64,000 nucleotides of DNA from Paramacrobiotus metropolitanus (Eukaryota > Tardigrada > Eutardigrada > Parachela > Macrobiotidae). The notes below the pieces were generated by a model that saw only the letters and a list, made by a program, of their open reading frames with translations, did no database searches and had not been told where the DNA came from. Both the position numbers and the translations under genes were made by a program. Numbering within the stretch: position 1 is the first letter of the stretch; each line of letters starts with the position of its first letter. The stretch is from assembly GCF_019649055.1 (NCBI RefSeq), contig NW_026570327.1:372001-436000 (forward strand). The letters are read 5' to 3'. Shown piece after piece: positions 17,020-53,456 of this stretch.

Positions 17020-20000
17020 ATGTCCAGCGATGCAGATTGTGAAAAGAGTGGGTCTGCCGGGAAGAAAGAACTTCTGCCATGTTACGTGAACGATGGAACG
17101 GAAACGCTGTCAGAGGAGAAAAGCAGCGACTTTGGAGCGCAGTTTGATGAGCTACTTGTGGCTGTCGGAAAATTTGGAAGATATCAACAGTTTGTTATTC
17201 TCGTTGTTCTGCTTCCTTCCATATTCGCTTACGCGTTTTCCAATGGATTCTGGGTGAGCGTGCGTGATTGAATCTGAATTCTGGAAAATGCACTAAACTG
17301 CAATAAAATTGTATAAAACCAAATATCGCGTGCAAAACAGTAAATTCCTTATGGTTCAATGACTTGAATCGACATGAACATGTAGCTACCAAAAAAGCAG
17401 CCGAAAAAATATAAAATCCTTAGTGAATCAAAATTATTTGGATCATTATTATAATAAATGATTTGTCAATCTTTTTATTCCGTCAAGGGAGTTTTGAAAA
17501 ATTTCCAACTTTAGGAATTTCTTATGTAATTAATTACGTAACCACTCGCAGTCACTCCCAGTCAGCGTAATTGCTGAAACCGATAAAATAAACATATATA
17601 TTACAATAATTATGGAAAAAATCACTAATAAATTTTAGTATTTATTATTGAATTTCAAAAGCTGTTTAATAGTAAGCTTTGCGTTATTACTATGTGTATT
17701 TGTTATTTAGCGTTTTCGGTATCGTTGAAAGTTTTCTGTTTACGGGAAAAGGACATAACGTCATTATGTTATATTTGCATGCTAAAATTCATGCGAAAGG
17801 TAATCGAATGTGCAAAAATGCAATGTTGCATTCAGTACGGGACCTGGAGCAGATTTGCACGATGAAAATCAATCTTTGCATAAGTGAATTTTTTTCATCG
17901 ACCGTGACATTTTTTCCAACTCATCGGATGTTTTAATAATAATGACGATTAATGCGTGGAAAGTATGAGATTTGCTGACTTTGCTTAGCGGCACACGTTT
18001 TGACTTGTCAAGCGTGTGTGATTTGTACGTGTGCAACACTCGAAGGTCACTTTAAATTGTAAACCAAACCTAAAACGGGACACAATAAGATAAGATTATT
18101 ATCCTCCTTGTGTCGTCTTTATGAAGAAATCAGGTATTTTTTGTGTGTAGTACACAGGTATCGGTCGTTCCCCATAATAGTCTTACTTACAAATACTGTC
18201 TTTTACGTTTCATGTGTGCTTGCATGTATCTGTATTTCCAACAGTCAGGTTAATTTGGTTTATACTTTATATGTTGGAAATACTGTAAACATCGGACAAA
18301 CGCAGATTCAACAAAAAAATACCAAATCATATGCCCAGGCAAAAATAAGCTGGCCGGGATTACTGTACTTACACCTTGACTGTCAACTTCAATATTGTTA
18401 AATTTTCATTACCTGGTAGTAGCCTTGGAAGTTTAGTAAATTATTACACGGCTGTTGGCTCTTTAAAAGCAGGAATTCGTTATCATTATTTTTCACTTTT
18501 CAGAGCGTTTTACGTACAGCGTAAGCCGGCTGGAATATTATTTTGAGATAAACATCCGACGGTAGTTACCCGAAGCGATTAGGTCGGAAGTTTCGAGTTT
18601 TTCTGCAGATGTTTCTGTCGGTCATGCCAGTACACGTGGTGTGGAGTGCCGTTTAAATTTTAATGGTTGTCTAGCCACGCAACCCATGCCGACAGTTATG
18701 ATTATGTAATGTCGTTTTTAAATAAACGCACTGGTGGTCGAAGAATTAATGGGCTAAAAAACTTGTATCATTTCCTGATCTTGAGTACTCAAAGCCATCT
18801 GGCAGTTCACTTTCCTTGTGGAAATTGCATGCTGTCCTTGACATTTACTGGTTACTTTCAGTGACATTTACGTATCTGCAAAAGTTGAAAGAATACATTG
18901 GGAATGAGATTTGACAGCGGATGCTCCTGAAGATGTGTGTTGCAAATTTTAGTGTGGTCATCAGAGCCCAGAGAGCCTAAAATTAACAACTCGATTGCAA
19001 TGAAACAGTCAAGTTGAAATGCGGAAAGCAATAAGAATGCGTATTAAATTTGTTCGCGTTCAAGAATTCGATTGTTTTTTCGGAATATGAAGTGTAATTG
19101 AAAACGCAAATTTACAGTACGCAATTTTACATTACTTACTCACAGTATTCACATATACAATATTCACATATACAATATTCACAATATTCACATATACATT
19201 TACCTCTGCGTCGTTGGTGAAATATCCTAATATCCTAGTATACCTAATAAAAGATCAAATCATTTCGATGGTTTAACAGTGTACGGTGTACGTAGAGGTA
19301 AAATGGTGTATTGTAAATTTAGAAGAAAACTGGACAGAATTTATATATTAATTATTTTTAAGTTATCACTTCTGCGTCTGCGTAAGCAGTTCTGCGTCTT
19401 TTCTCGTGCATGGTAAAATTAATGAAATCAGTTATATAGATATTTTAATTCGTTTATCAATTTGCACTTCTTTTTTTGCATGGACAAAGTACATACACAG
19501 TAGTTTACAGGTAGAAAGAACGTGCGTAGGTTTACTAATTCTTATATGTAATTGTAACTTGTAAGCACTTAACATCGTTATGCGAAATGTGCTATGGATA
19601 TGCACAAAGAATAATTAAGTAATTATCGTTTTGTTGCACCATGAACTCATGCAGTTTGAATCCTTTCATTACTTAATTAATATCTTTTTAATTTACAGCT
19701 TTTTATCATCGCGTCACCAGACAAATTCTGGTGTCGTTCTGGAGATAACGTATCGGACTTCAATTTAACCGCGAATGGGGACCAGCAGTGCACCGTCCAC
19801 TCCATAGCTATGGCGAATGCGTCAGATTCTGTTGACCGGACCAGTGTGCCGATAGCGCCTTGTGCAAGTGGTTGGGACTATGATAAGACCTACTACTACA
19901 GCACCATCGTAACCGAATGGGATTTGGTGTGTTCCCATGATTTCCTGGCCACATTGATGTACATCATCACATCCGTCGTGGGAACACTAGCCGCACCACT

Positions 20001-21370
20001 GGGCGGCTGGTGTAGTGACCATTATGGCCGGAAGTCCACATATTTCGGCTTTCTGGCCGTAGAAATTGTCAGTGGCATAGCGGTGTCTTTGTCCCCTTCG
20101 TACTGGATATTTGTTGTGTTGGCTTCGGTGCACAGCATTGCCGTGTACCCAACTTACCAGACGTTGTACACACTGGGTTTGGAGATTCTCAGTCCTGATT
20201 ATCGCACCAAATTTGCGGTGATGTTAAGTTTTGCATATGCATTGGGCGCTTGCGCGTGCTGCGGATTATCCTTCTTCCTGAGGGATTGGCGAATGATTAT
20301 TCTGAGCTGTAGTTTGCCCGTGGCGAGCTTGTTTGGGTTTTGGTGGGTGATGCCGGAATCTCCGCGGTTTTTGTTGAGCCAGAGACGTTTTCGGAAAGTG
20401 GAGCTGTACTTCCGACGCGCAGCAAAGTGGAACCGCGTGAATTTCGAGGTAGAATGCCGGGAGAAGTTGTGCCATCTATTTGAAAGTCTGTCCACGCGCG
20501 ACGTGAAAGCCAAGGAGAAGTCGTACTCGTTCAAGCATCTGTTGATCTGCCCGAAATTGCGACGTCGCTTATTTGTCTTAATGTATTTGAGCGGAGTCGT
20601 CGCGGTATGTTATGGTGGTCTTGGATTTTATGCACCACAATTGGGAACCAATCCGTACTTGAATGTCTTCCTGACGAGTTTAGTGGATTTGCCCGCCGCG
20701 TTGTTGACACAGTTAGTGGCCGATAAGTTGGGAAGACGATTGACTTTGTTGTTGGATTTCGTTTTGGGAGGCTTGGCTTGTTTGGCAACGTTATTGTTCC
20801 CCCAAACGGAAGATTATTATTTCGCAACCCTGGTGTTGTTTTTGATGGCGCGGATGTTCGCTGTGAGTTCATACACGGTGGAGGAACTTGTGTCGTGCGA
20901 GAATTTTCCCACGGTTGTGCGGGGTGAGGGAATTAGCTTGACGAATGGCGTTTCGGGGATTGTGTCGAATTTGGGGCCGACCATCGTTTACTTGTTTGTC
21001 GGGAATGCGTTGGCCACACCCATGGCTTGGTTTGGAGGAATTACGATTTTGGCCAGTTTTATTGTGTTTTTCATTCCAGAGACAGGTACATCGATGCATT
21101 CTGTTTGTGTTGTATTTCTTGTTCGTTTTCAGTTTCGTTCATAACGGTCAAAGGATGTAGTGCAGTATGCAACAGACATTAATGCTAAATAAACTTGAAT
21201 TGCGCAGCTGACAATGAGTCAAATGAGGCGCATGAAAACGAAAACTGATTGAATAAAATTTGTTTGTTTGTGTTTTGACAGTTGATAAACCGCTTCCGGA
21301 AACGTTGGATGATTTTGAAGATTTCACTGTGGTTCAATCTGTGAGGGAACTTTTTGTGCACCTGAAATGA
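17020..21370 (+). CDS. SLC22-type organic cation/anion transporter (major facilitator)
   Basis: Three exons: 17020-17253, 19699-21085 and 21282-21370 (phases 0 and 1 match); 569 residues. After a hydrophilic N-terminus, the first membrane helix (about 57-78) is followed by a large extracellular loop with Cys and N-glycosylation sites, then PCASGWDYD and TEWDLVC, both hallmarks of the SLC22 family. The MFS motif follows helix 2 (GGWCSDHYGRKST). PESPRFLL follows helix 6, a large cytoplasmic loop comes next, then six further helices (second-half motif DKLGRR). The C-terminus contains ETLDDFED. Members carry organic ions, carnitine or similar solutes across the plasma membrane; the substrate cannot be read from sequence. 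The first intron is 2445 bp, the largest in the window. Confidence 0.93.
19141..19200. repeat. Short tandem repeat in SLC22 intron 1
   Basis: Repeated units of the type TATTCACATATACAA, with one shorter variant, in direct orientation. Simple AT-rich satellite-like sequence. Confidence 0.7.
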
Positions 21371-22099: not shown

Positions 22100-24794
22100 T
22101 TAAGCTTCCACAGTCTCTCCCTCCGCCTGCATTTCCTGATCCACCTCTTCCACGGCATCGCCCTCTGCACCTTCTAGTACTGCTTCGCCCTCCCCTTCAC
22201 CCAGCACCTCCCCTTCCCCCAGCATGGCGTCATCGCCGTCGGCTTCGACAATTTCATCTTCCTGAACCACGTCTTGTGATGCATCCTGCATAATACCCTG
22301 GGTGCTCATCTTCCGTTTGTGACGCGCCGTATTGTGGAACCTAAATGCAGTCTGACGTGAGGGAATGCGATGACAGATATGACTTTCACTCACCAATAAA
22401 TAACCTGAGCCGGAGTGAGCCCCAGTATCCGCGCCAGGCGTTTGGCTCGTTTATCACCACACGTTGTACTTTTCTGGAAGGCTTTATCTAAAACAAATAC
22501 AATGAACTACTCAAATCCGTTATATAAAACCAACACCAGTTTTGCGCATTGCACAACTGAACGAAAAAACGAAAAAACGCTGTGAATCTCTAGGGTACCA
22601 AGGGTAGTGAGCACCTGCGCGGTAATCACGTTAGCAATGATCGAACAACAAGGCATTTTTATATTTGGTCCCATCCAAAATTCTCGTCCAATAATTTTAA
22701 ATCGAATGTTCGGATACTTAAAACACCAAATAAGTTCGGTAATAAATAAAGACTGAGTTAAAAAAAGTAATGCCGGCTCGTATTTCGAAAAAACATCCGA
22801 CGAAAACCCAATTGTCCTGCGAAAAGGCAAATATAGAAATTTCTCATTAACAGACTTTTCTAACGCGCCTGTGTTCTACAAGACAATCCTTTCGGATTCG
22901 AATGTTCAATGGGCGGACGCTGCCCGTTTTCGGGGCACAGAAAAAATAAGAATACCGTTGAGTAGCGGTAATCGCTCATTCATCGCATACGTTATAACTG
23001 CTTCTGACCAGTATGTGTACACTGCAGCAAGCCGGCTTAGCCATTTTTTAATGCACATACCAAGGATTTCAAGCTGAAAGGGGGTCTTCTTCATCGGCGT
23101 TTTCCTATTGACAGGCGCTTTCTTTGGCTTGGGAAGGATTGGAAGCGTGACTGTAATAGTGGTCACTTCCGGCGTCGTTTCCTGGGTGGAAGAGGTAGCC
23201 ACGGGTTCACTGGATGTCTCACCAAAAATATTGTTCAAGGCCGCAGCTACCACATCGGCAGAAACTTGTGCCGGCGAAGGGATCATCTGCTCAGTAATTC
23301 CTATCCATAAAACAAGCATGTTTACAAGAAAGTAAAAAAATATCAGCATGCGATGCAAATCATCCAGATTGCAAAAGCAACGGTTTACTTCAAGTTAGCG
23401 ACGTCGAATAATTTGTACTACACGAAGTCCATACAAATAATGCAAAAGTTATTGTAAGTGTGAAAAAAGATACTATCTGTATGCATTCAGTAATTATTAT
23501 TCTAGACCGTCATAAAAACGCCCACCTGGAACTCGCAATCGAATGAGAAGCTCATTGGCCTCTTCCTTGGTTAGTCCGCCCCGGACAAACGCCTTCCGGG
23601 TCTCTTTGATGGCGCGCTCTTGCGTATTTAATTTCGGCTTCTGCTTCCAAACGCTGGGCTCCTTAATGTACGTTCCATCTTCCAACAATGTCATGCGTGT
23701 GCCCCCGCCAGTGTCCAGGATGTCCAGATCCGAGTCAACGTCGTCTTCGCGTTGCACTTTCGGACTGAGAAGCTTGATGATGTGCGAAGGGAGACGATGA
23801 CGGTGGCGTCGCACAAAGCCATCGCGCCAGGAATACGTAAATGTACAGCGCATACCTGCAAATTCAGAACGACAGCTTTAGCATTTATTCGTTTTTAACC
23901 ATCCACTTTTAAATTTTAAAAAAATTCCGGAAATCTAGTTTAATCTAATAACGAGGCCAAATCAAAATAGTCATATTTATATTTTAAGAACATTCACCTC
24001 CCAATTCACAAATATGTACAGTAATATACTAATATAAATATTCACAGATTTACTGTCTACTGAACAGTCATTATACATGTGTGCATTTTACTGTTTAAGT
24101 ACATGTAAACTCTGAATATGATCAGTCCGTAAGGAGGCTAATGTTGCAACGGTCTGTGTTAAAATTTGTTTGGAATCAAGTTCATCCTACCTCCATAACG
24201 GAATGTTGCCTGCACATCCCGTTAACACCAACATGCGTAAACAAAACACGCTTAAAGGATAGCCGTCGTTAGCCGATAATTAAAAAAAACTTATCCCTAA
24301 TCGTAGAGGGTGTAATAACAACTGGCTAGACAGGTTTACCATACTTGTAACTTCCCTCATAATTTACCGTTAACAAAATGGACATTTCTTAAAATTGCGT
24401 TATGTTATGCCTCAGCTTTTATGATTTTCATTTGAAACCGTTTTTTCCACATTAACGGAATATTAACAACCCGAAACATAAGCATTTACGATGATTTACC
24501 ATTTTCATTAGCAAATTCTTCCATCAGTGTCCTGAGCGTGCGATATTTCCCTCGGAAGGGGCCCAGTGATAACAAAAACTTGACCAGTCCATCTTCCTGC
24601 TGTGGAGACAACAAAGTCGCTAATTTCCGCTCACGTTTCGGAATACCGTGTATACTGATAATGCGCCGAATATTGGTTTCAGAGATTCCCAGTTCCTTTG
24701 CAATGGTGCGATGGGCGATGCCATCCCGATATAATTCTTTTACTCGCTCAATCCGATCATCCGTCATCTTAGAACGCGGACCGCGTTTACCCAT
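22100..24794 (-). CDS. Pogo/CENP-B-type HTH plus homeodomain protein, copy 1
   Basis: Five exons: 24794-24500, 23855-23526, 23300-23061, 22487-22394 and 22340-22100 (phases 1,1,1,2 all match); 399 residues. Residues 10-50 are a psq-like helix-turn-helix (ERVKELYRDGIAHRTIAKEL). A CENP-B-like second HTH follows (LSPQQEDGLVKFLLSLG, then TYSWRDGFVRRHRHRLP), the bipartite DNA-binding layout of pogo transposases. Residues about 273-332 form a 60-residue divergent homeodomain whose recognition helix is QVIYWFHNTARHKRK. W48, F49 and N51 are kept, but position 53 is Ala instead of Arg. The tail is a run of Glu/Asp/Gly. No DDE catalytic domain is present. I infer a DNA-binding regulator built from a domesticated transposase domain. 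A longer upstream frame (to 24980) is not shared with copy 2, so I start at 24794. Confidence 0.85.
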
Positions 24795-26031: not shown

Positions 26032-29000
26032 TTAGTCTAAAATACACACAGTAGAGTTGCCCTTTAATTTTGAACCCACGGGACAGGTGAACTCTTCGAT
26101 GCCATCGTATCCCAGTCCCGTATCGTAACAAATATAATACTTTTGCGGTGCACTATCCGCATGGGCTGCTGTATCGCCGGTTTGGCATTTGATCTGCGCA
26201 TAGGTGGCCGGTAAACTGGAACCGGTCTGGATGTAGAAAGGCTGATCTTTCTTCAACGTGGTGGACGTCGGCACCACACAGTCGATGGCGGCTGTAACAA
26301 AGGTGCAGTTCTTCTTTTCCGGACATTCCAGTTCACCCGGCGCAAAGGATGAGGGAAATATTTTCGGACAGCGTAGTGTGGTTTCACAGCCACCCGGCAG
26401 GGGCTGCTGCGAGAGACATCGGGATTCTACCCGCGAGTTGAGATCGGAAAGAACGGCTTGCTCGTCGGTCGGGGATAATGGAGCCAGGATGGAACGGGCA
26501 GCGCGTGTAAGTGGATAAGGTACACCACAATACCCGTGTGGATCTGCGAAATGAATTAATATTTAATCGAACCACAAATATGCGCAGTAATTTTTGTGTA
26601 ATAACCAGTATACTTTTATCTAGTTCTTTTAGAAGAACGCAACGTTGCGTTCTTCTAAAAGAACTAGATAAAAGTATTTTATCCAAAAACACTGAAAACT
26701 TCAAAATAAAATTTCTTAAGAATTCCCTAATCCAAATTTAAGTTTTCTGAATTACAGATATAATGTTTGCGTATACATCGATCGCTACCTGACCTCGTGA
26801 GTAATTCTTCTAGGACATTTAAATTAAATTTCGATTTTTGTACAGTTGTCGCACCATCTTGATCGCTGGAAAAGACCATTATCCCTCCAAGATTATTTTG
26901 GCGCGTATAATTGGCTTTCTCCTTCACACTGGCATCGTTATCATAGGAAAGCCACTGGTCGCCGTCGTACGAGTACGAATGCGACACCTTGGTAACAGGA
27001 TCACGGATCATGGTATAGACACCCGTAGCCAGCATCCGGCACACTTCCAGATACGCCAGCGTCCCGGGGGAAATAGTCAACGGGCCGGCTTTGCCATCGC
27101 TCAGAATCTTTACCCCGATTTTCTTAGGATTATCCCCGGAATCATCAATGGGGATGGTGTAAGTGCGTGCGGTACCGGTAACTGCGATGGAAAGTTTTTG
27201 CCGGCCAACCGCTGTTTTCAACCAACCTTGCACAGCCGAATCCTGTTAAATTAAGCGAAATATGTATTAAGTATACGCAAGATCCTTATAATAACTGTAA
27301 GTATAAAACCATGAGCGTGCATAATTACTTAAAAGAGAAGGTTAGTTACGTCTGAGATGGTTAAAACCTCTTGACTGGGTTAGTAGGAATCATGTTTTTT
27401 CCTTAATTAACAAACAAATACAGAGTGTGCGAAACAGATATATATTGCGCTACCATTTTTGCCAATAAGTAATTTTAGTCTTTTACCAGGCTATAGTTTC
27501 CCGGAGAGTTGTACAAAGGCGCATGATGGTATGTGACTTTGCTCCAAGGACCATAGAAATCGTACGTTAAAAGATAGAAGATGTCCACAACCCTGAAATG
27601 CGCATCAGGGTATATGATGTCAGGATATTCTAGTAACGTACTGTACGTATTTGAATGTATTAAATCTTACTGATTAAGAGCGTCGACATCATAATAATCG
27701 ATGTTGGCAATATCTGCTGATAAAGTTATAGAAATTATCAAATCTTCCGCACGTCCTGTAGCCTCCTTTTTGAATGCCGCTTTCATTTCCTGTGGGACAT
27801 TTCGCCATGCTTTATGTACGAGTTACGACAGAGTGAGATGGAGAACCATGTGCAGAGATGGATAGCCATATACTCGTACAGATACAAATACGGTTATGAT
27901 AAAAGAAGTTGATATCAATGGTAAGTCCCAACCTTGAGAAGCGTGGGAAAGTTTTTGTAATCTTCCGGATCGCCACCGCGGTTGCCCACTCCCGGTACCA
28001 GCCAGTCGATCAGCAATCCATCGAAATCGTACAATTTGCAAAATGCTACGACGCTATCAATAAAAGTTTTACGGCTGGAAGGTTGCATTGCCTAAAACGA
28101 AATATGTTCGACAATAGAAACGGTGCAGTATTGGAATAATGCGGGTTCACCATTTGACTAAACATAAAGCCACCGGCATTCCATCCTCCAATTCTAAAAC
28201 GAAGTATTTTTAAAACAGCTTATCAGTCATTCTGGATAGAAAGCTGCGACGTCAGTGAAATGCTTGCTATGCAGCTACGTATACACGTGTTAAAGCATAA
28301 TTTTGTGTGGTAACGAAATGAAACGCCTGCAGTACACGCAAAGAAAGTACTCCTGAAATGCAGCGTGGCTGCAGCACGGAAAGCCACTTTACGACATACC
28401 CAATGACGGCCTTCATTTTCGGGTTTTTTGCTTTCAGAGATACAAATTTGGCGATGTTCCCTGAATACGAAAAACAGATTTAAGATCTATACCATTTCGT
28501 TAATATAGTACAGACTTTACTGACGAAAAATTGCAATTGCAACATAAAGGAACTGCTGAAAATGATTATATTACTGAATATTGTCTGTTTAGTAAAAACA
28601 ATAAAAGTGCTTCAAACAAGAGCTAAACAACGCGAAATATTAATTGAGAGCATGAGCTTAGAATCGTTATCCCCACCTCGCCGTCCGTTTCCTTGCAGAT
28701 CATTGTAAGCATCGAATGCTACCATCGTGTTATTCTGCAAAAAATTGTGCGTTTAGTGCACGTCAAATTACTCCTGCTGTTACTTTAACTTCGTAAAATT
28801 ACTTCTGCTGTTAATATTATGATTTTTAGTTACGGTATTTCTCCACACATCATGCATTTAACATTCATAATTTCGGAATTTATGGTTCCTTTCACCACTA
28901 TTTAATTTAGTCTGCGTTAAATTTTCGACAACATTCCATTTTCATATACTGTACAATTTGTACATCCATATTTCATGATATTTGTACTACTACAATATTA

Positions 29001-45836: not shown

Positions 45837-46032
45837 GCAAAGCACCGGAAGACGTCTACAGGAAAGTTGTGCCGAAAATCCTATTGAGTTGTTTTGGTTT
45901 ATTCTAGCAAAATCTACAAGTATTTGTGGCAATAAGCAACGGTGGATTATTACAAAAAGTGACGAACAACTATTGCTGCGAAATGAGTTACCGCGGTCGA
46001 CGATCCAAATTGACGGATGACAATGTTGAGCG

Positions 46033-47603
46033 ATGAAAGAATTGTATCAGAATGGGGTAGCCCATCGCAACATTGCGAAGGAAAAGGGAATCTCCGAAAC
46101 GAATATGCGGCGCATTATTAGTTCCCACGGTATTCCGAAACGTGAGCGGAAATTAGCGACTTTGTTGTCTCCTCAACAGGAAGATGAACTGGTCAAGTTT
46201 TTGGTGTCGCTGGGTCCTTTTGGGGGAAAATATGTAGCGCTCCGGAATTTGATGGAAGAATTCGCCCGTGAAAATGGTAAAATTAATTTCATCATATAAT
46301 TCCACCAAATGTGGAGTTTTTTGCTTTTTGTCGCTTGTGTGCTCAAGTTGTGAATGCAACTTTGTTGATGTACGGCAGTATAGGCGTAAAAATCATTAGG
46401 CGATTATTATGATACGACTGCGCTTTGCAGACATGCAGTGCACATTCACATATTTCTGGCGCGATGGCTTCGTGCGACGGAATCGTCAGCGTCTGCCGGC
46501 TCACTTTATTAAGCTGCTCAGTCCCAGAGGAACATCTTTGACGAGCGGGTATGATGATGATTTGGACATCCTGAGGGCGATGAATTCCAGAAGGCGCCCC
46601 CGGAGGATATTAACCGAAGACGATGCGGGCGTAAAGGAGCCCAGCGTGTGGAAACAGAAGCCGAAGTTGAATGTCCACGAGCGCGCCGTCAAAGAGACAC
46701 GGAAGGCGTTCATCCATGGCGGACTGACCAAGGAAGAGGCCAACGAACTTCTCGTGCGACTGCGAGTCGAAGGTGGGTTTTTGTGAAATATATAGTTCAC
46801 GTTGCGGAGAGTATGAAATTCGCGATGATAAAATTGACATAGGTACTTGAAGTAAACATTTTCAGAGTAGTTAGCAGTTAAGGTCATTCCTTATTAGGAA
46901 TTCCGCAGCCAGTAACCCCCGTGCCACAAATGTCCAGTGATATTCTGTGGGTTACCGCGATTAATAATATTTTCGGCGAGACATCCGGTGAACCGCAACC
47001 GACCTGTTCCACCCAGGAAGCAGTACCGGAAGCGATATTCCCTAATTTTCTTCTCAAGGCAAAGATACCGCCGACTGTAAAATTTGATGTGAACAGGAGA
47101 AGTCCGATGAAGAAGACAGCTTTCCAGGTCCAGGTTCTAGGTATAAATTATATTAGAACGATAGCAGATTATTTTGTTTTGTCTTAAAAACAGCTGATCT
47201 GGTTTAAAGAGAAAGCTTTTCAAAAAAGCACAACATGCGGTGATAAACGAGCCAAACGACTGGGACAGCTGCTGAATCTTTCTCCGACTCAAGTTATCCA
47301 TTGGTAATTGGAAGCATCGTTTTGTGGTGAAACTTGTGACTTTATGCTGTTTTTGTATGAGGACGGGTGTTTGCATGCAGGTTTCATAATACTGCGCGTC
47401 AGAAACGGAAGATGGCGCAAAAGGCGGGTCCGGAAGGAGTAGTCGTACAAGATGCCATTTTGGAGGCGCAAGCTAGTCATGCCATGTTGGGTGGAGAGGA
47501 AGGAGCGCTGGATGGAGGCGAAACGATGCTAGAAAGCGGAGAACATTATACCATGGAGAAGATTAATCAGGAAACACCACAAGGGTTGGTTCTGGAAGGG
47601 TGA
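46033..47603 (+). CDS. Pogo/CENP-B-type HTH plus homeodomain protein, copy 2 (frameshifted N-terminus)
   Basis: Five exons: 46033-46276, 46431-46772, 46898-47140, 47210-47303 and 47381-47603. They give 381 residues with the same intron positions and phases as copy 1, and exon 4 is 94 bases in both. The psq-like HTH (NGVAHRNIAKEKGISETN), the CENP-B-like HTH (LSPQQEDELVKFLVSLG, TYFWRDGFVRR) and the homeodomain with recognition helix QVIHWFHNTARQKRK are all intact. The acidic tail is shorter. The start homologous to copy 1 is an ATG at 45983, but a one-base deletion at about 46031-46033 puts a stop (TGA 46034) in that frame. The ATG at 46033 restores the rest but loses 16-17 residues before the first helix. 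The exon-4 acceptor (TTTAAAG) lacks a good pyrimidine tract. A recent pseudogene, a sequence error or a real shorter protein are all possible. Confidence 0.75.
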
Positions 47604-48084
47604 TATTGCTGTGTTTGTGCGAGTTGCTGTGTAATACTGTACATAGATTTTATACTTGGGTAGTGATAAGAGATTTCTGTTAATAATGCCACAGTCAAAC
47701 TTCTGGTAAGCTTGCCCCAAAAATGACGTGAAATTTCCTCAGCGATCTCTCTGTTTGTGATATGTACGGTATTGGGGCACAATCATTTAATGCAGTTGCA
47801 TTTATCTATTTATAAATGACATTACAAGCTTGCAGTTATATTTTTGTGTCCAAAATAGGAAGTGCAGTTTTTATAATATCTGAAACGTAACTTAACGAAG
47901 AAGGAAGTCACGCTGGGTCGAGCGACTTCAGCGTTTTCTTAAGGATTACGTCACGCTTGGGTAGCAGAATAGCAGCTGGGCCGTAATGCATTAATCGTAA
48001 ATTTTATTTTTTATCAGTATAAAAATTCGCTCTTGAGGCACAAGATCGCTCATCTCACAGAGTGTGGACTTCTACATTTAACAA
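47604..48084. other. Intergenic, convergent homeodomain copy 2 / AKAP17A 3' ends
   Basis: No exon or RNA gene seen. Confidence 0.5.
48003..48008 (-). terminator. Poly(A) signal of AKAP17A
   Basis: AATAAA on the minus strand, 77 bases below the stop codon. Confidence 0.55.
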
Positions 48085-51000
48085 TCAGCAGTATAAAACA
48101 TTTACAGGCGCCTGAAATGCTGCCTCATCGTCTTCCATTGCAACATGATTACGCTGACCAGCATGCACAGGCACAACAACAAGGAAACTGCTTAACCTAG
48201 AGTCTTCATTACTGCGACTCAGGCTAATCTTTTTGTGCTGCGAGTCTTCCGTGTTTCTGGAAAAATCCCTGCCATTAGATTTTCGTGCACCTTTGACTTT
48301 TTTCGCTGGCCTCGGTGCGCCATTTGTTGTACAATCGACCGGCTGGATTTTCGAGCTACTGGCACGGTTTTCCGAAACCGCAGCGGATTGGACAGCAGGC
48401 GAAGGAAAATTCTTCCCCAACCATTCAGAAACTTGCTCCAGTTTTTTATCCACATCTGGCGGACCCTTTGCAATTAATTTCATCCGTTTCCGTTCTCTGC
48501 GTTCCAGTTTCTTCAACTTTTTCTCTTCTTTTTGCTTTCTCTTTTTCTCTACTTTTCGTGTAGTTTTGAGCAACGCTTTCCGCAGTTCATCTTCTTTTTG
48601 AGACAGCATTTTTGAGAATTCGACTTCTTTCTGCAGCTCCTGCTGTCGCGCTTCCTCTTTTAGCCTTCTTTCCTCCTGTTCACGATGAATACGCTCTAAT
48701 TCTGCTAATTCTTCCTCTCGTTTCTCCTGAAAACATGTTGACGCTTGCCAGCACAATCCACAAACCACGTTGTATGCAGCGACCACGTACCTTCAGCCGT
48801 TCCAGAAGTATGGATAACAGTCTAACGCTTTCCAGTTCGCGCTGAGCTATCAACAACTTTCTCTCCTCGACAGCTACTTCGTGTTGCCGCTTTCGTTCTT
48901 CTTCTTGTCTCTTCCTTTCTGCGGCTTTTCTCTGCTCCATTAGTCGTCGTTGCCGGCGCCGTTCTTCTCGGCGGCGCTTCTTTTCTTCTTTTCGGCCAAT
49001 TCCTCAGCCTCTCTCTCTCTGAGTGACAAAACAACGGAATGCTGAAAAATCTGTGTGATAAATTGCTCTCTAAGTGTAAAGCTAAAAAAGTTATCAGTCT
49101 GTACGACTGTACTTAGCAGAATTTCTTAGATAGCATACCGGCAACCGTTTAAAAAAATAATATCATCAGTTTAGAGAGTAACATTAACAAACTAACAATC
49201 CCCATTCCCCACTATTATGCAAACGAAAACTCACGCCTCTAATATGCGTTTCTTCTCAGCTTCTTCCGCATCTTTTTTGGCTTTTTGCTCTTTGAGCTTT
49301 TCGAGTCGCAAATATTCCAGACGATCCTGCCGCCGCTTGCGAATATTTTTTTCGCTCATATGTTGAGTTTTGTCAAATTCCACCTAAGAAATCAGACTGC
49401 GTCAAAATACAAGCATATTACAAAACGGTAATCACTACGAACTACCGCCACAAATTTAGCCACATAACTTGCTGCGCATTATTGGTATCAAAACCAAGAC
49501 TACTAGCTCTGAAAAAAATTCCAGATAAACTAAATTAATTTTCAAGGTAAGTCAGGCAACTCAAAAACTGCCTAATAAAAGCGTTAACGCCTGGACAAAT
49601 TACCGAAAAACCATTGTCTACATTTTACATCCACGAGATTGCAGTAACAGCAGAAAAATAAATGCACATGACAAAATACAATTATTTCCTGCCACCTTCT
49701 TCAACTAAAACTTATCTTTCTCCTGCTGATAAATCCACAAACCGCAATGAGATCAAAAAGGATCCAACTGCACTGAGCTCGCTGTATCAAGTTATGCGGC
49801 GGTGGCCCATCAAAACAACACAAGCGTCAAATAACCTTGATATTGGCAGTAAATGCCTTCTCCTCGCTCTCTTTCCATAACAGCTTCATCCCGTATAACG
49901 CAGTGAGGCATTTAACAAAAGCATTGTATTCAGCATACTGGATAAAGGCATCAAAAACGAACTCATGTCCGAAACCTTTGAGCGTATTACTGGCAAGGAG
50001 AGACTGATTGCGCGATGGATCCAGCAGTGGCACATCGGCGGCGCGAATCTTACCAAATAGTCCGAATACTTCTTTCAATCGGTCCATGGATGGCTTATTG
50101 TTAACGTCTACACCCTTTTTATCCACCGGAACAAAGCTGTTCTCAGCTGGATCGGTCACCTCCGCGGCAGCGTCTGTGCTCGGGGGCGCCTTAGGCACGG
50201 AAGGATTATCGGGCTTCGGTTTGCTGAACCATTTGCAGGGCACATTGCGCAGGACAACAGTATCGGGCCGCTGTCCCGGCTTCAGTTCGTTGAGATTCTG
50301 TGCATCACGAAAAAATGCAGTCCAGTCATGCCGCTGAGGAAAATTTAACTTAGCTTCTGAGCAATGAATTCGTAATGTCTCCGAAAATCCGCTCAGTTTT
50401 ATGGTCTGATCCTCCAACTGGTGCATCACTTTCAGAACCAGTTCTTTGTTGTCCAGTTCGCCTTCATATCGAATAACCTGCCAGAAACTTAACGATATGC
50501 AAAACGAAACTGCAAGCGCAAACTGAAGAGGCACGACAAACCATATAAACTGATGAAACTAAAATTTAATAACATACTACAAGTGAACGAACTACGAAGT
50601 CAGTTACGTGTGATTGCGAGATACGTTACGAGATAAAAAGATACCCGCCTAAAATTTAAAAATGATCGAATGATACAATATTATTAAGAAAAAACTGCAA
50701 CTGACAATCGTAAGTCGTACTGTCGTACTTAACTTTCAATTAAGTAAAACAATTCACTTACAGTAAGTCTTATTAGCTTTTGAGTACTTGTAATAGCTTT
50801 GAGTAGTATTAGAAGTTTTTGGTTTGCGCAAAAATCTGTATTCAAAACTGCAAAAGTAAACGCTTAAGTTCTTAACTGCGATTAAGTAAACGCTTAATTG
50901 TTTGCTTAACTGAGTGCGTTTGCCCAAACATTCAAATAGTTTCCTTTAGATTACAAAATACCAGCGTGTCACAGTGACCACTCTCAGAAACTGTGCAAAC

Positions 51001-51337
51001 ACAAACCTCAAGGTTACTCGTTGTCACTTTCATCATACTGAAAACCATAGGCTTGGCAAGAGTTTTTATCTTCTCCATAACTTCCCAATTCGAGATGCTT
51101 TTTCCCACCGCTGAGGTTACTGAAGTTGCGGCCAAGGTTTTGGGAAGCTGAACGGCAATGCAAACCCGTGCTATAGGTTTCAGAAACAGCGACGGTTGAG
51201 CCAACTGCGTCACATCGGACAGGTCGGAGCATGGCTGAAGTGCCACAGCACCTGCCTGAAATAAACACAAGTTTGATACAAAACCAAATAAATGTATGTC
51301 GCAGAGTGCCATAAAACGAGCAACCGAAGCATACCAT
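48085..51337 (-). CDS. AKAP17A: A-kinase anchor protein 17A homologue (one-base frameshift in exon 5)
   Basis: Six exons: 51337-51335 (the ATG alone), 51255-51007, 50477-49836, 49383-49235, 49018-48791 and 48726-48085; about 637 residues if the shift is corrected. The N-terminal half matches AKAP17A closely: GKSISNWEVMEKIK, VIRYEGELDNKELV, KLSGFSETLR, FPQRHDWTAFF, PGQRPDTV and PCKWF. An RRM-like segment follows (DRLKEVFGLFGKIR, VPLLDP). The rest is a long charged coiled coil (QHMSEKNIRKRR, EERKLLIAQRELESVRLL) and a Lys-rich tail. The family is a nuclear-speckle splicing factor that anchors protein kinase A. In exon 5 the frame breaks at an A-rich stretch near 48980-48995: one base too few for both flanks and both splice phases to stay in frame. 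A further upstream start cannot be excluded because the frame stays open before 51337. Confidence 0.88.
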
Positions 51338-51896
51338 AGCAGCGCTGGAGCTTGCAGACTTAGCTATTAAAATCCCAGCCTTCGACTCTTCAGGAACTGC
51401 ATTCGAACAAAGCCTATTTAAAATGCAAGAAGCTTAGAAGCCACACAGCGACTGATGTCCCCTCCTGTACCCAGTGACCACACTCAACAGAACCAGCATC
51501 ATTAAACAGACAGCTCCTAATTTCTGGGCAGTTCTAATGCCAAGATGTATCAATTCCGGAATTTAAACCCGTTTCACTTCCTTCGGAAATTTTAAAAAAA
51601 AACTGATAAAAAGTACAAAAAGACAACACCATAAATTCTTACCAGCAGTTTGCTTGATTTTTCCTTTTTTTCGGTTTTGTACTTTTGTTTTGATTTTTGA
51701 TCAGACAACAAGCGTATATGGGCAAGGCTTGGCCTTTACTACTCTATTAACTGCGACTTACGAGTACGTATGTATTTAAACGGCGTTTATTTTTTTACGA
51801 CTTCCTAATTTTTTTCGTCAGCGTGTTACACTGTTACGGTTTACTATCTACATATCCACGAAGTCTATCAAAGATTAAGGATCTCTTTATGGATGC
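51338..51896. other. Divergent intergenic region AKAP17A / MMACHC
   Basis: About 0.56 kb with two expected promoters. No TATA box or RNA gene recognised. Confidence 0.45.
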
Positions 51897-53456
51897 ATGG
51901 TAAGAGATTCAAAACTGTATTTACTGGAATCGGGGGAAACCAGAGACAGAATGTTTCATTTGTGCGGCGCCGAAATGTTGAAGTTGAAATCAACGGGGCT
52001 ACATGACACTGACGCACGATCAGCTGGTCTTGGCACCCTTCGATTAGACCAGCCGGGCAGTCGATCCTCTCCCGTTATCAGCATCACTCCGATAGCCGAA
52101 CCAGAATCTCCGTCCTCGTTATCAGTTCAGGAACTCCGCAGCATTCTCATCCAGATCAGTCGTATTTTAGCGCCGCAAGGATTTGAAATCTATCCGTACC
52201 TAGTAGGTATGGATATGAGTCTAGGACAAATTATTTTTTTCATTTTTATCCTAACCACATTGGCATGATTGATAATTATTTTGATTCTCGCATTCGTCGA
52301 CGATTGTACCAGTTTCAAAGATTTTATCTTGTCTTCTTATTTTAGGATGGTATAATAATGTTGTGGAGCCCCCGTTTTGTTTGCAATATGACAAAGATAC
52401 GGTTGCGGTTCTGGTTATCAGCACGCCTTCCATGTTCGAGCGCACATTCATTCCCTTCATCTTAAACAACGATCTGAAAGATCTACGGGATCCCATTGAT
52501 TTGTGTGTTATGAAATGCTTTAGCCGACTTCGGAAGGTGAACGATTATGACCCATTTTGTAGTAATTGTCATATGATGTATTATCATGTTTTGCCATTGT
52601 ATTTGCGCTATTGCCTTGCGGGAATCCGAATAATTTGTATGTTCGGCAGTGGTTTTTTTTTGCTGTGTCTGGGGGTACTCTGAAATTAGCTAAATGGAAA
52701 TAATTGCAGTGCAGCCTCAGGCCTTAGTTTTATGCGACAATTTGATTTTGTTTTCAATTGAAAAAGGATTGAAATAAATTTTTGCAGGGACTTGATAATT
52801 TGGATATGGACATCATTCATGATTTTGAACTCCATCCAAATCGACGACCAAAAATTCTTGCCCAGACTGCTGCACATGTGGCCGGTGCTGCATATTTGTA
52901 CCAACCCAAACATTATCCCAGCGCATCGAAAAATCAAAAGGTAATAACTGCAACAATGATTAAAAGACCAAAGTAGTGGCGATAATTTGTGGGCTTCTTG
53001 TTTACAATTTTTAAGTTGGTGATAGTTTGCTCTGGGCGGTTATTGTTTTGGCGCATGCGCCGCGCCCAATTTTTGACAGCAAGGCGTGTGCAGTTGCGAA
53101 TGTTGAAAAGGTGATGTTTTTTTATTATTGCATTACAGAAGTTGATGGGGGTATGCATGCATCCAAAACTCGGAGGCTGGTTCGCAATTCGCGGCTGCAT
53201 TATTTTGAAAACAACTTTATGCAGAGATTTGCCCCGTCGTCCACCTGTTAACGTGATACGATCAGATATAGACGCACAAACTGCCATTGAATTGTTTAAT
53301 TTTCACTGGCGGGATAGTCGCTTCCGGGATGTGATTCCGGTGGTGGAAAAGTATTCCGAAGATCAGCAGTTGTACTTTAACACTTCCCCTGGCAAACGCA
53401 AAGAACTGCTACCACTTTTAAAAGAAAAGTACAAGCATTTGGAAACTGAAGAGTAA
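51897..53456 (+). CDS. MMACHC: Cobalamin processing protein (cblC)
   Basis: Exons 51897-52206, 52346-52536, 52788-52940 and 53139-53456 (phases 1,0,0); up to 323 residues, human 282. The nitroreductase-like core matches human MMACHC in order: [76 protein letters not shown] and [15 protein letters not shown] binds incoming vitamin B12 in the cytosol and removes its upper ligand (decyanation or glutathione dealkylation) before delivery to methionine synthase and methylmalonyl-CoA mutase. The N-terminal 70-80 residues before the core are not conserved. The true start may be a later in-frame ATG, since the first ATG sits in a donor-like context (ATG|GTAAGA). Confidence 0.93.

Follow-up and report, generated by a model that had tools for sequence, protein, structure and literature searches.

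The window, a 64,000-nucleotide stretch of tardigrade DNA (C107:372001-436000, in an assembly of 169.8 Mb and 533 contigs that was searched as a whole), carries a five-exon gene on its minus strand at 22100-24794. The gene had been proposed by a sequence-only reading, and the exact exon model bears it out: the five exons join in frame across introns that are all GT-AG and have phases 1, 1, 1 and 2, and the coding sequence, whose stop codon ends at 22100, specifies a product of 399 aa. The protein begins with two helix-turn-helix (HTH) modules, which a linker connects to a homeodomain, and ends in an acidic tail (Table 1). One neighbouring gene encodes an MFS transporter of the sugar/organic-ion type (Sugar_tr, 2e-22), and another is GH18 chitinase-like (1e-17). 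Between exon-like ORFs of the latter lies a perfect 68-bp palindrome, the sole perfect palindrome of ≥26 bp in the window. The assembly has exactly five DM-domain genes, and two of these lie 28 kb apart on contig C5; the published 170-Mbp genome of Paramacrobiotus metropolitanus likewise has five Dmrt genes, with a complex of two genes extending over more than 30 kbp on scaffold 5 (PMC11191345).

Table 1. Positions of the five-exon gene, its relatives and other features mentioned in the text (window coordinates unless a contig is named)
Feature	Position	Strand	Content
Exon 1	24500-24794	-	295 nt, ends in phase 1; start codon, HTH1, basic linker, HTH2 helices 1-2
HTH1	24767-24648	-	about residues 10-49, within exon 1; Pfam HTH_7
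Exon 2	23526-23855	-	330 nt, phase 1 to 1; HTH2 recognition helix SWRDGFVRRHRHRLP and conserved uncharacterised region
Exon 3	23061-23300	-	240 nt, phase 1 to 1; linker and homeodomain residues 1-16 (23109-23061)
Exon 4	22394-22487	-	94 nt, as in the other two copies; homeodomain from codon 17 (phase 1) to codon 48 (phase 2)
Exon 5	22100-22340	-	241 nt; homeodomain helix 3 end (FHNTARHKRK), acidic tail, stop TAA
Copy 2	45983-47603	+	all five exons recognisable
Copy 2 exon 1	45983-46276	+	81% DNA identity to exon 1; 1-nt deletion
Copy 2 exon 2	46431-46772	+	
Copy 2 exon 3	46898-47140	+	
Copy 2 exon 4	47210-47303	+	94 nt, homeodomain
Copy 2 exon 5	47381-47603	+	homeodomain end, tail, stop TGA
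C270 version of copy 2 region	C270:75059-80058		at contig end
C16a exons 1 to 5	C16: 62285-61991, 61364-60930, 60620-60438, 60293-60200, 60127-60085		distant paralogue
Transporter gene	19681-21141	+	Sugar_tr
Chitinase-like gene	26730-27245	-	GH18
Palindrome	26610-26677		68 bp
Homeobox-like fragments	C17:48610-48708; C90:48637-48744		VDALF*RKQYLTVE
Multi-HTH repeat proteins	C51:552538-553740; C51:538633-539610; C51:42339-43499		HTH_23/HTH_7-type modules
CENP-B_N/Tc5 ORF	C12:748929-749321	-	251 residues

The helices predicted for exon 1 fall at residues 12-23, 28-35, 39-49, 64-77 and 84-97. The first module (HTH1), initially taken for a psq HTH at residues 10-50, is a significant HTH, and its best Pfam match in the window protein is HTH_7, a generic resolvase HTH (E = 8e-6). 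In C16a, a distant paralogue described below, the top score for HTH1 is to CENP-B_N (E = 0.0012), at 18.9 bits against a cut-off of 21.2. The psq assignment itself did not hold in Pfam, as neither HTH_psq nor CENP-B_N reaches its cut-off for HTH1 in the window protein or in C16a. A Pfam search of the whole 399-residue protein gives a significant homeodomain and no assignment to HTH_psq, HTH_Tnp_Tc5 or CENP-B_N. When exon 1 is folded alone (pLDDT 74), HTH1 is clearly resolved as a three-helix unit and the model has two additional helices, and a Foldseek search with it returns generic HTHs only, with nothing at E < 0.001 and no specific structural relative.

The second module (HTH2) had been described as CENP-B-like. 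It has no match in Pfam, HTH_Tnp_Tc5 included, even as an isolated region, and the likeness is seen instead at the profile level: by hhalign, HTH2 aligns over most of its length to eleven Tc5-type HTHs of the same genome (P = 1.7e-4, probability 50%), scoring above 100 column shuffles, and a W-x3-F-x2-R motif is invariant in both alignments, that of HTH2 and that of CENP-B/Tc5-type HTHs. The rest of exon 2 encodes the conserved uncharacterised region, which terminates in FVRGGLTKEEANELLIRLRVPG. In addition, residues 18-116, which extend across both HTHs, align to the ORF of a same-genome pogo transposase containing psq, Tc5 and DDE domains as typed by Pfam, with a pairwise E of 1e-7 and a score above those of 150 shuffles. 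This pairwise value is optimistic, because the partner was first found by a search at genome scale, where its E is only 0.3, and the pairwise test was picked after that match had been seen. A DDE catalytic domain (DDE_1) is not matched in the whole protein or in the linker. The alignments moderately support a pogo/CENP-B-type origin of the HTH pair.

Three matches on contig C51 (beginning at 552538, 538633 and 42339) were rejected as relatives, as they are multi-HTH repeat proteins built of repeated HTH_23/HTH_7-type modules. The same contig has further CENP-B_N matches from 12069 to 553716, and multi-HTH proteins apparently form a large cluster there that is specific to the lineage.

The homeodomain, residues 273-332, is matched by Pfam with an E of 1.2e-10 in the whole protein and of 4.6e-11 as an isolated domain; the PF00046 scores of the window protein (41.5 bits) and of C16a (52.9 bits) compare with a curated cut-off of 22.9. 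The 60-residue domain has W48, F49 and N51 and an alanine at position 53, all as reported before, and the corresponding motif reads WFHN in both window copies of the gene and WFRN in C16a. The homeodomain had also been called divergent. R53 is absent from the window copies, but C16a has a more canonical WFRNRRQK with R53 intact (Pfam E = 3.2e-14), so that the homeodomain is less divergent at the family level than the window copy implies. Since the window copies have lost R53 and C16a retains it, their homeodomains may differ in affinity, and the loss could weaken homeodomain binding in the window copy. The tail is acidic as first described, with 24 D/E and no K/R in the last 69 residues.

Two introns interrupt the homeodomain, in codon 17 (phase 1) and in codon 48 (phase 2), and the identical pair is found in Hox-like (ANTP-type) genes elsewhere in this genome (C108, C43 and C6). 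These genes differ from the window gene in that the ~5 kb scanned upstream of them gave no sign of N-terminal HTH exons, and their homeodomain similarity to its family is weak. The solved homeodomains nearest to that of C16a, slightly closer by sequence, are PRD-like (DUX4, Pax6 and PHOX2B). With regard to the source of the homeodomain, the introns point to Hox-like genes and the sequence slightly to PRD-like ones. The intron pattern and the sequence indicate that this half derives from a real intron-bearing homeobox gene rather than from a chance HTH. Split homeobox exons on C11, C90, C43, C108, C17, C6, C92, C10, C96, C141 and C39 were considered as a wider family and rejected, having no HTH exons nearby. 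Separately, C17 and C90 carry near-identical homeobox-like fragments with a common in-frame stop (VDALF*RKQYLTVE), which we regard as dispersed homeobox pseudogene copies.

A transposase-derived HTH pair N-terminal to a homeodomain is also the layout of PAX, and the module order would be identical if the gene were a very divergent PAX gene, its HTHs being the PAI and RED of a paired domain in front of a PRD-class homeodomain. HTH1 does align weakly to PAI (hhalign P = 0.025), and the PRD-like neighbours of the C16a homeodomain, Pax6 among them, are in line with such an identity. HTH2, however, does not resemble RED (hhalign P = 0.73), yet matches the CENP-B/Tc5 HTH. Furthermore, the Pfam PAX profile (PF00292) is unmatched at E up to 10, whereas the real PAX loci that coexist in this genome score 63-217 bits per exon. 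The PAX gene on C39 has a homeodomain intron pattern different from that of the window gene, and position 50 of the homeodomain carries His or Arg where PAX typically has Ser. Pfam, and hhalign comparison with five paired-domain sequences of the same genome, both go against PAX identity, and we hold this reading to be quite unlikely.

A protein search of the assembly gave 20 exon matches, mostly in four regions. Copy 2 lies in the same window on the plus strand. The deletion in its exon 1 breaks the frame after codon 16, and its original start may have been lost recently or an internal ATG may be used; an in-frame ATG at 46033 could be the start of a shortened protein. The end of contig C270 matches the copy 2 region (window 46505-51950) at 88-93% identity and has further damage, and it is probably an uncollapsed allele/haplotype or a recent (segmental) duplicate of that region. 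C16a encodes 349 residues, 33% identical to the window protein, in five exons with the same phases 1, 1, 1 and 2; the first exon, at 295 nt, and the fourth, at 94 nt, have exactly the lengths of their counterparts in the window gene. C16a encodes both HTHs and the more canonical homeodomain; the acidic C-terminal tail is missing and an acidic stretch is present in exon 2. Next to it on contig C16 is C16b, a partial degenerate neighbour. A scan of viral contigs for relatives found none.

The two window copies have diverged with a dN/dS of 0.25 (bootstrap 0.18-0.33). The ratio is 0.20, 0.25, 0.21, 0.17 and 0.25 in exons 1 to 5, respectively; over the HTHs it is 0.17, and over the homeodomain 0.16. 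Since the duplication that produced the window copies, the HTH half and the homeodomain half have both been maintained as protein, with purifying selection in every exon. The dS between these copies is ~1, and the duplication is therefore old. A chance join of the two halves is excluded because the architecture and the intron phases recur at two other loci, under purifying selection. On the best-supported reading, the fusion has survived two or more duplications, of which one is very old.

The presence of several copies, one frameshifted and one partial, could also suggest an accessory protein that is encoded by a transposon or was recently mobile, rather than a host gene. The copies are very few, however: two in the window, the C270 copy, which is maybe an allele of copy 2, and two on C16. 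Moreover, the window copies are alike in their exons only, self-comparison of the window reveals no flanking terminal repeats, and introns and selection are of the host-gene type. We consider a mobile-element origin of this kind highly improbable, in favour of a host gene.

The exon 2 donor and the exon 3 acceptor, through which the HTH and homeodomain modules are joined, are both in phase 1 at three loci, and the codon split between them always encodes Gly. The intervening intron measures just 225, 125 and 309 nt in the window gene, copy 2 and C16a, respectively, and contains no AATAAA or ATTAAA poly(A) signal in any of the three. Exon 3 spans the junction, supplying the linker and the first 16 homeodomain residues, and is itself constrained (dN/dS = 0.21). 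These features bear on the possibility of two adjacent genes that were co-duplicated, with exons 1-2 forming a short HTH gene of pogo origin and exons 3-5 a divergent homeobox gene. Such an arrangement would account for an in-frame ATG inside exon 3, and for the reading frame of exon 2 stopping 9 codons beyond the donor site. On the other hand, no sequence is conserved beyond that donor, and the conserved splice-site pair, the Gly codon, the short introns and the constraint on the linker exon all speak against separate genes, which we regard as unlikely. The evidence that the HTH exons and the homeodomain exons form a single gene is strong but indirect.

The locus is probably a host-transposase fusion gene that founded a small tardigrade gene family and encodes a likely DNA-binding regulator. 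In the proposed scheme, the double HTH of a pogo/CENP-B-type transposase, minus its DDE domain, would have been joined in frame by splicing to homeobox exons contributed by an ordinary intron-bearing homeobox gene. The sequence-only reading had likewise proposed transposase-derived HTHs joined to a homeobox gene; the join is well backed by the phases conserved at three loci, the lack of a poly(A) signal between the modules and the selection, and the pogo origin more moderately. Judging by its domains, the protein, presumably expressed, would most likely be a sequence-specific nuclear DNA-binding regulator. The HTH pair and the homeodomain may read separate half-sites of a composite DNA site via the flexible linker, as do the paired domain and homeodomain of PAX, and the acidic segments, including the acidic tail, could recruit transcription or chromatin machinery.

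The architecture seems PAX-like, in that the DNA-binding half of a transposase precedes a homeodomain, with different parts and a separate origin. We lean, with less assurance than for the fusion itself, towards a second, independent PAX-like origin, that is, a lineage-specific tardigrade homeobox class that combines a pogo-type double HTH with a homeodomain, has three DNA-reading modules, and acts as a developmental transcription factor. The paired domain is thought to derive from a Tc1-like transposase and to have become linked to a homeobox gene of the PRD-like type (PMC4901127, PMC8290160). Among fusions of a transposase DNA-binding domain with a homeobox gene, PAX is the textbook example, so old that the event can only be inferred. 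A younger, separate event involving another transposase superfamily would, if true, make this route to new developmental regulators a repeatable one, and the donor transposons, the unfused homeobox relatives and the orthologues of related tardigrades would be directly comparable. The catalogue of metazoan homeobox genes would also gain a class; PMC4901127 lists 16 for animals, none of them with CENP-B-type HTHs. We found no report of a protein with CENP-B/psq HTHs and a homeodomain in the open-licence literature, in agreement with the initial impression that no family with this layout has been described.

The fusion of transposase and host exons has precedent. In the tetrapod host-transposase fusion (HTF) genes (Cosby et al. 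2021, as cited in PMC8290160), transposase DNA-binding domains are spliced to host exons to yield transcription factors, and the tardigrade gene is predicted to be joined by splicing in the same manner. The HTF genes described are from tetrapods, and a CENP-B-type HTH with a homeodomain partner was not found in the literature searched. The CENPB and HTH-psq families are covered by a nine-phylum survey of TE-derived factors, which mentions neither homeodomains nor tardigrades (PMC10027918). Vertebrate pogo-derived genes (CENPB, JRK, TIGD, POGK and POGZ) have been domesticated recurrently, in some cases fused to KRAB, zinc-finger or CENP-B dimerisation domains (PMC7386202). In their products, as in the tardigrade protein, an HTH of the CENP-B_N or psq-like type precedes one of the Tc5 type; the tardigrade protein differs in having no DDE match and in its homeodomain, which is absent among the partners in PMC7386202. 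Elsewhere in the tardigrade genome, a 251-residue ORF on the minus strand of C12 matches CENP-B_N (3e-10) and HTH_Tnp_Tc5 (6e-14), lacks a DDE domain, and is a candidate for a separate domesticated pogo gene.
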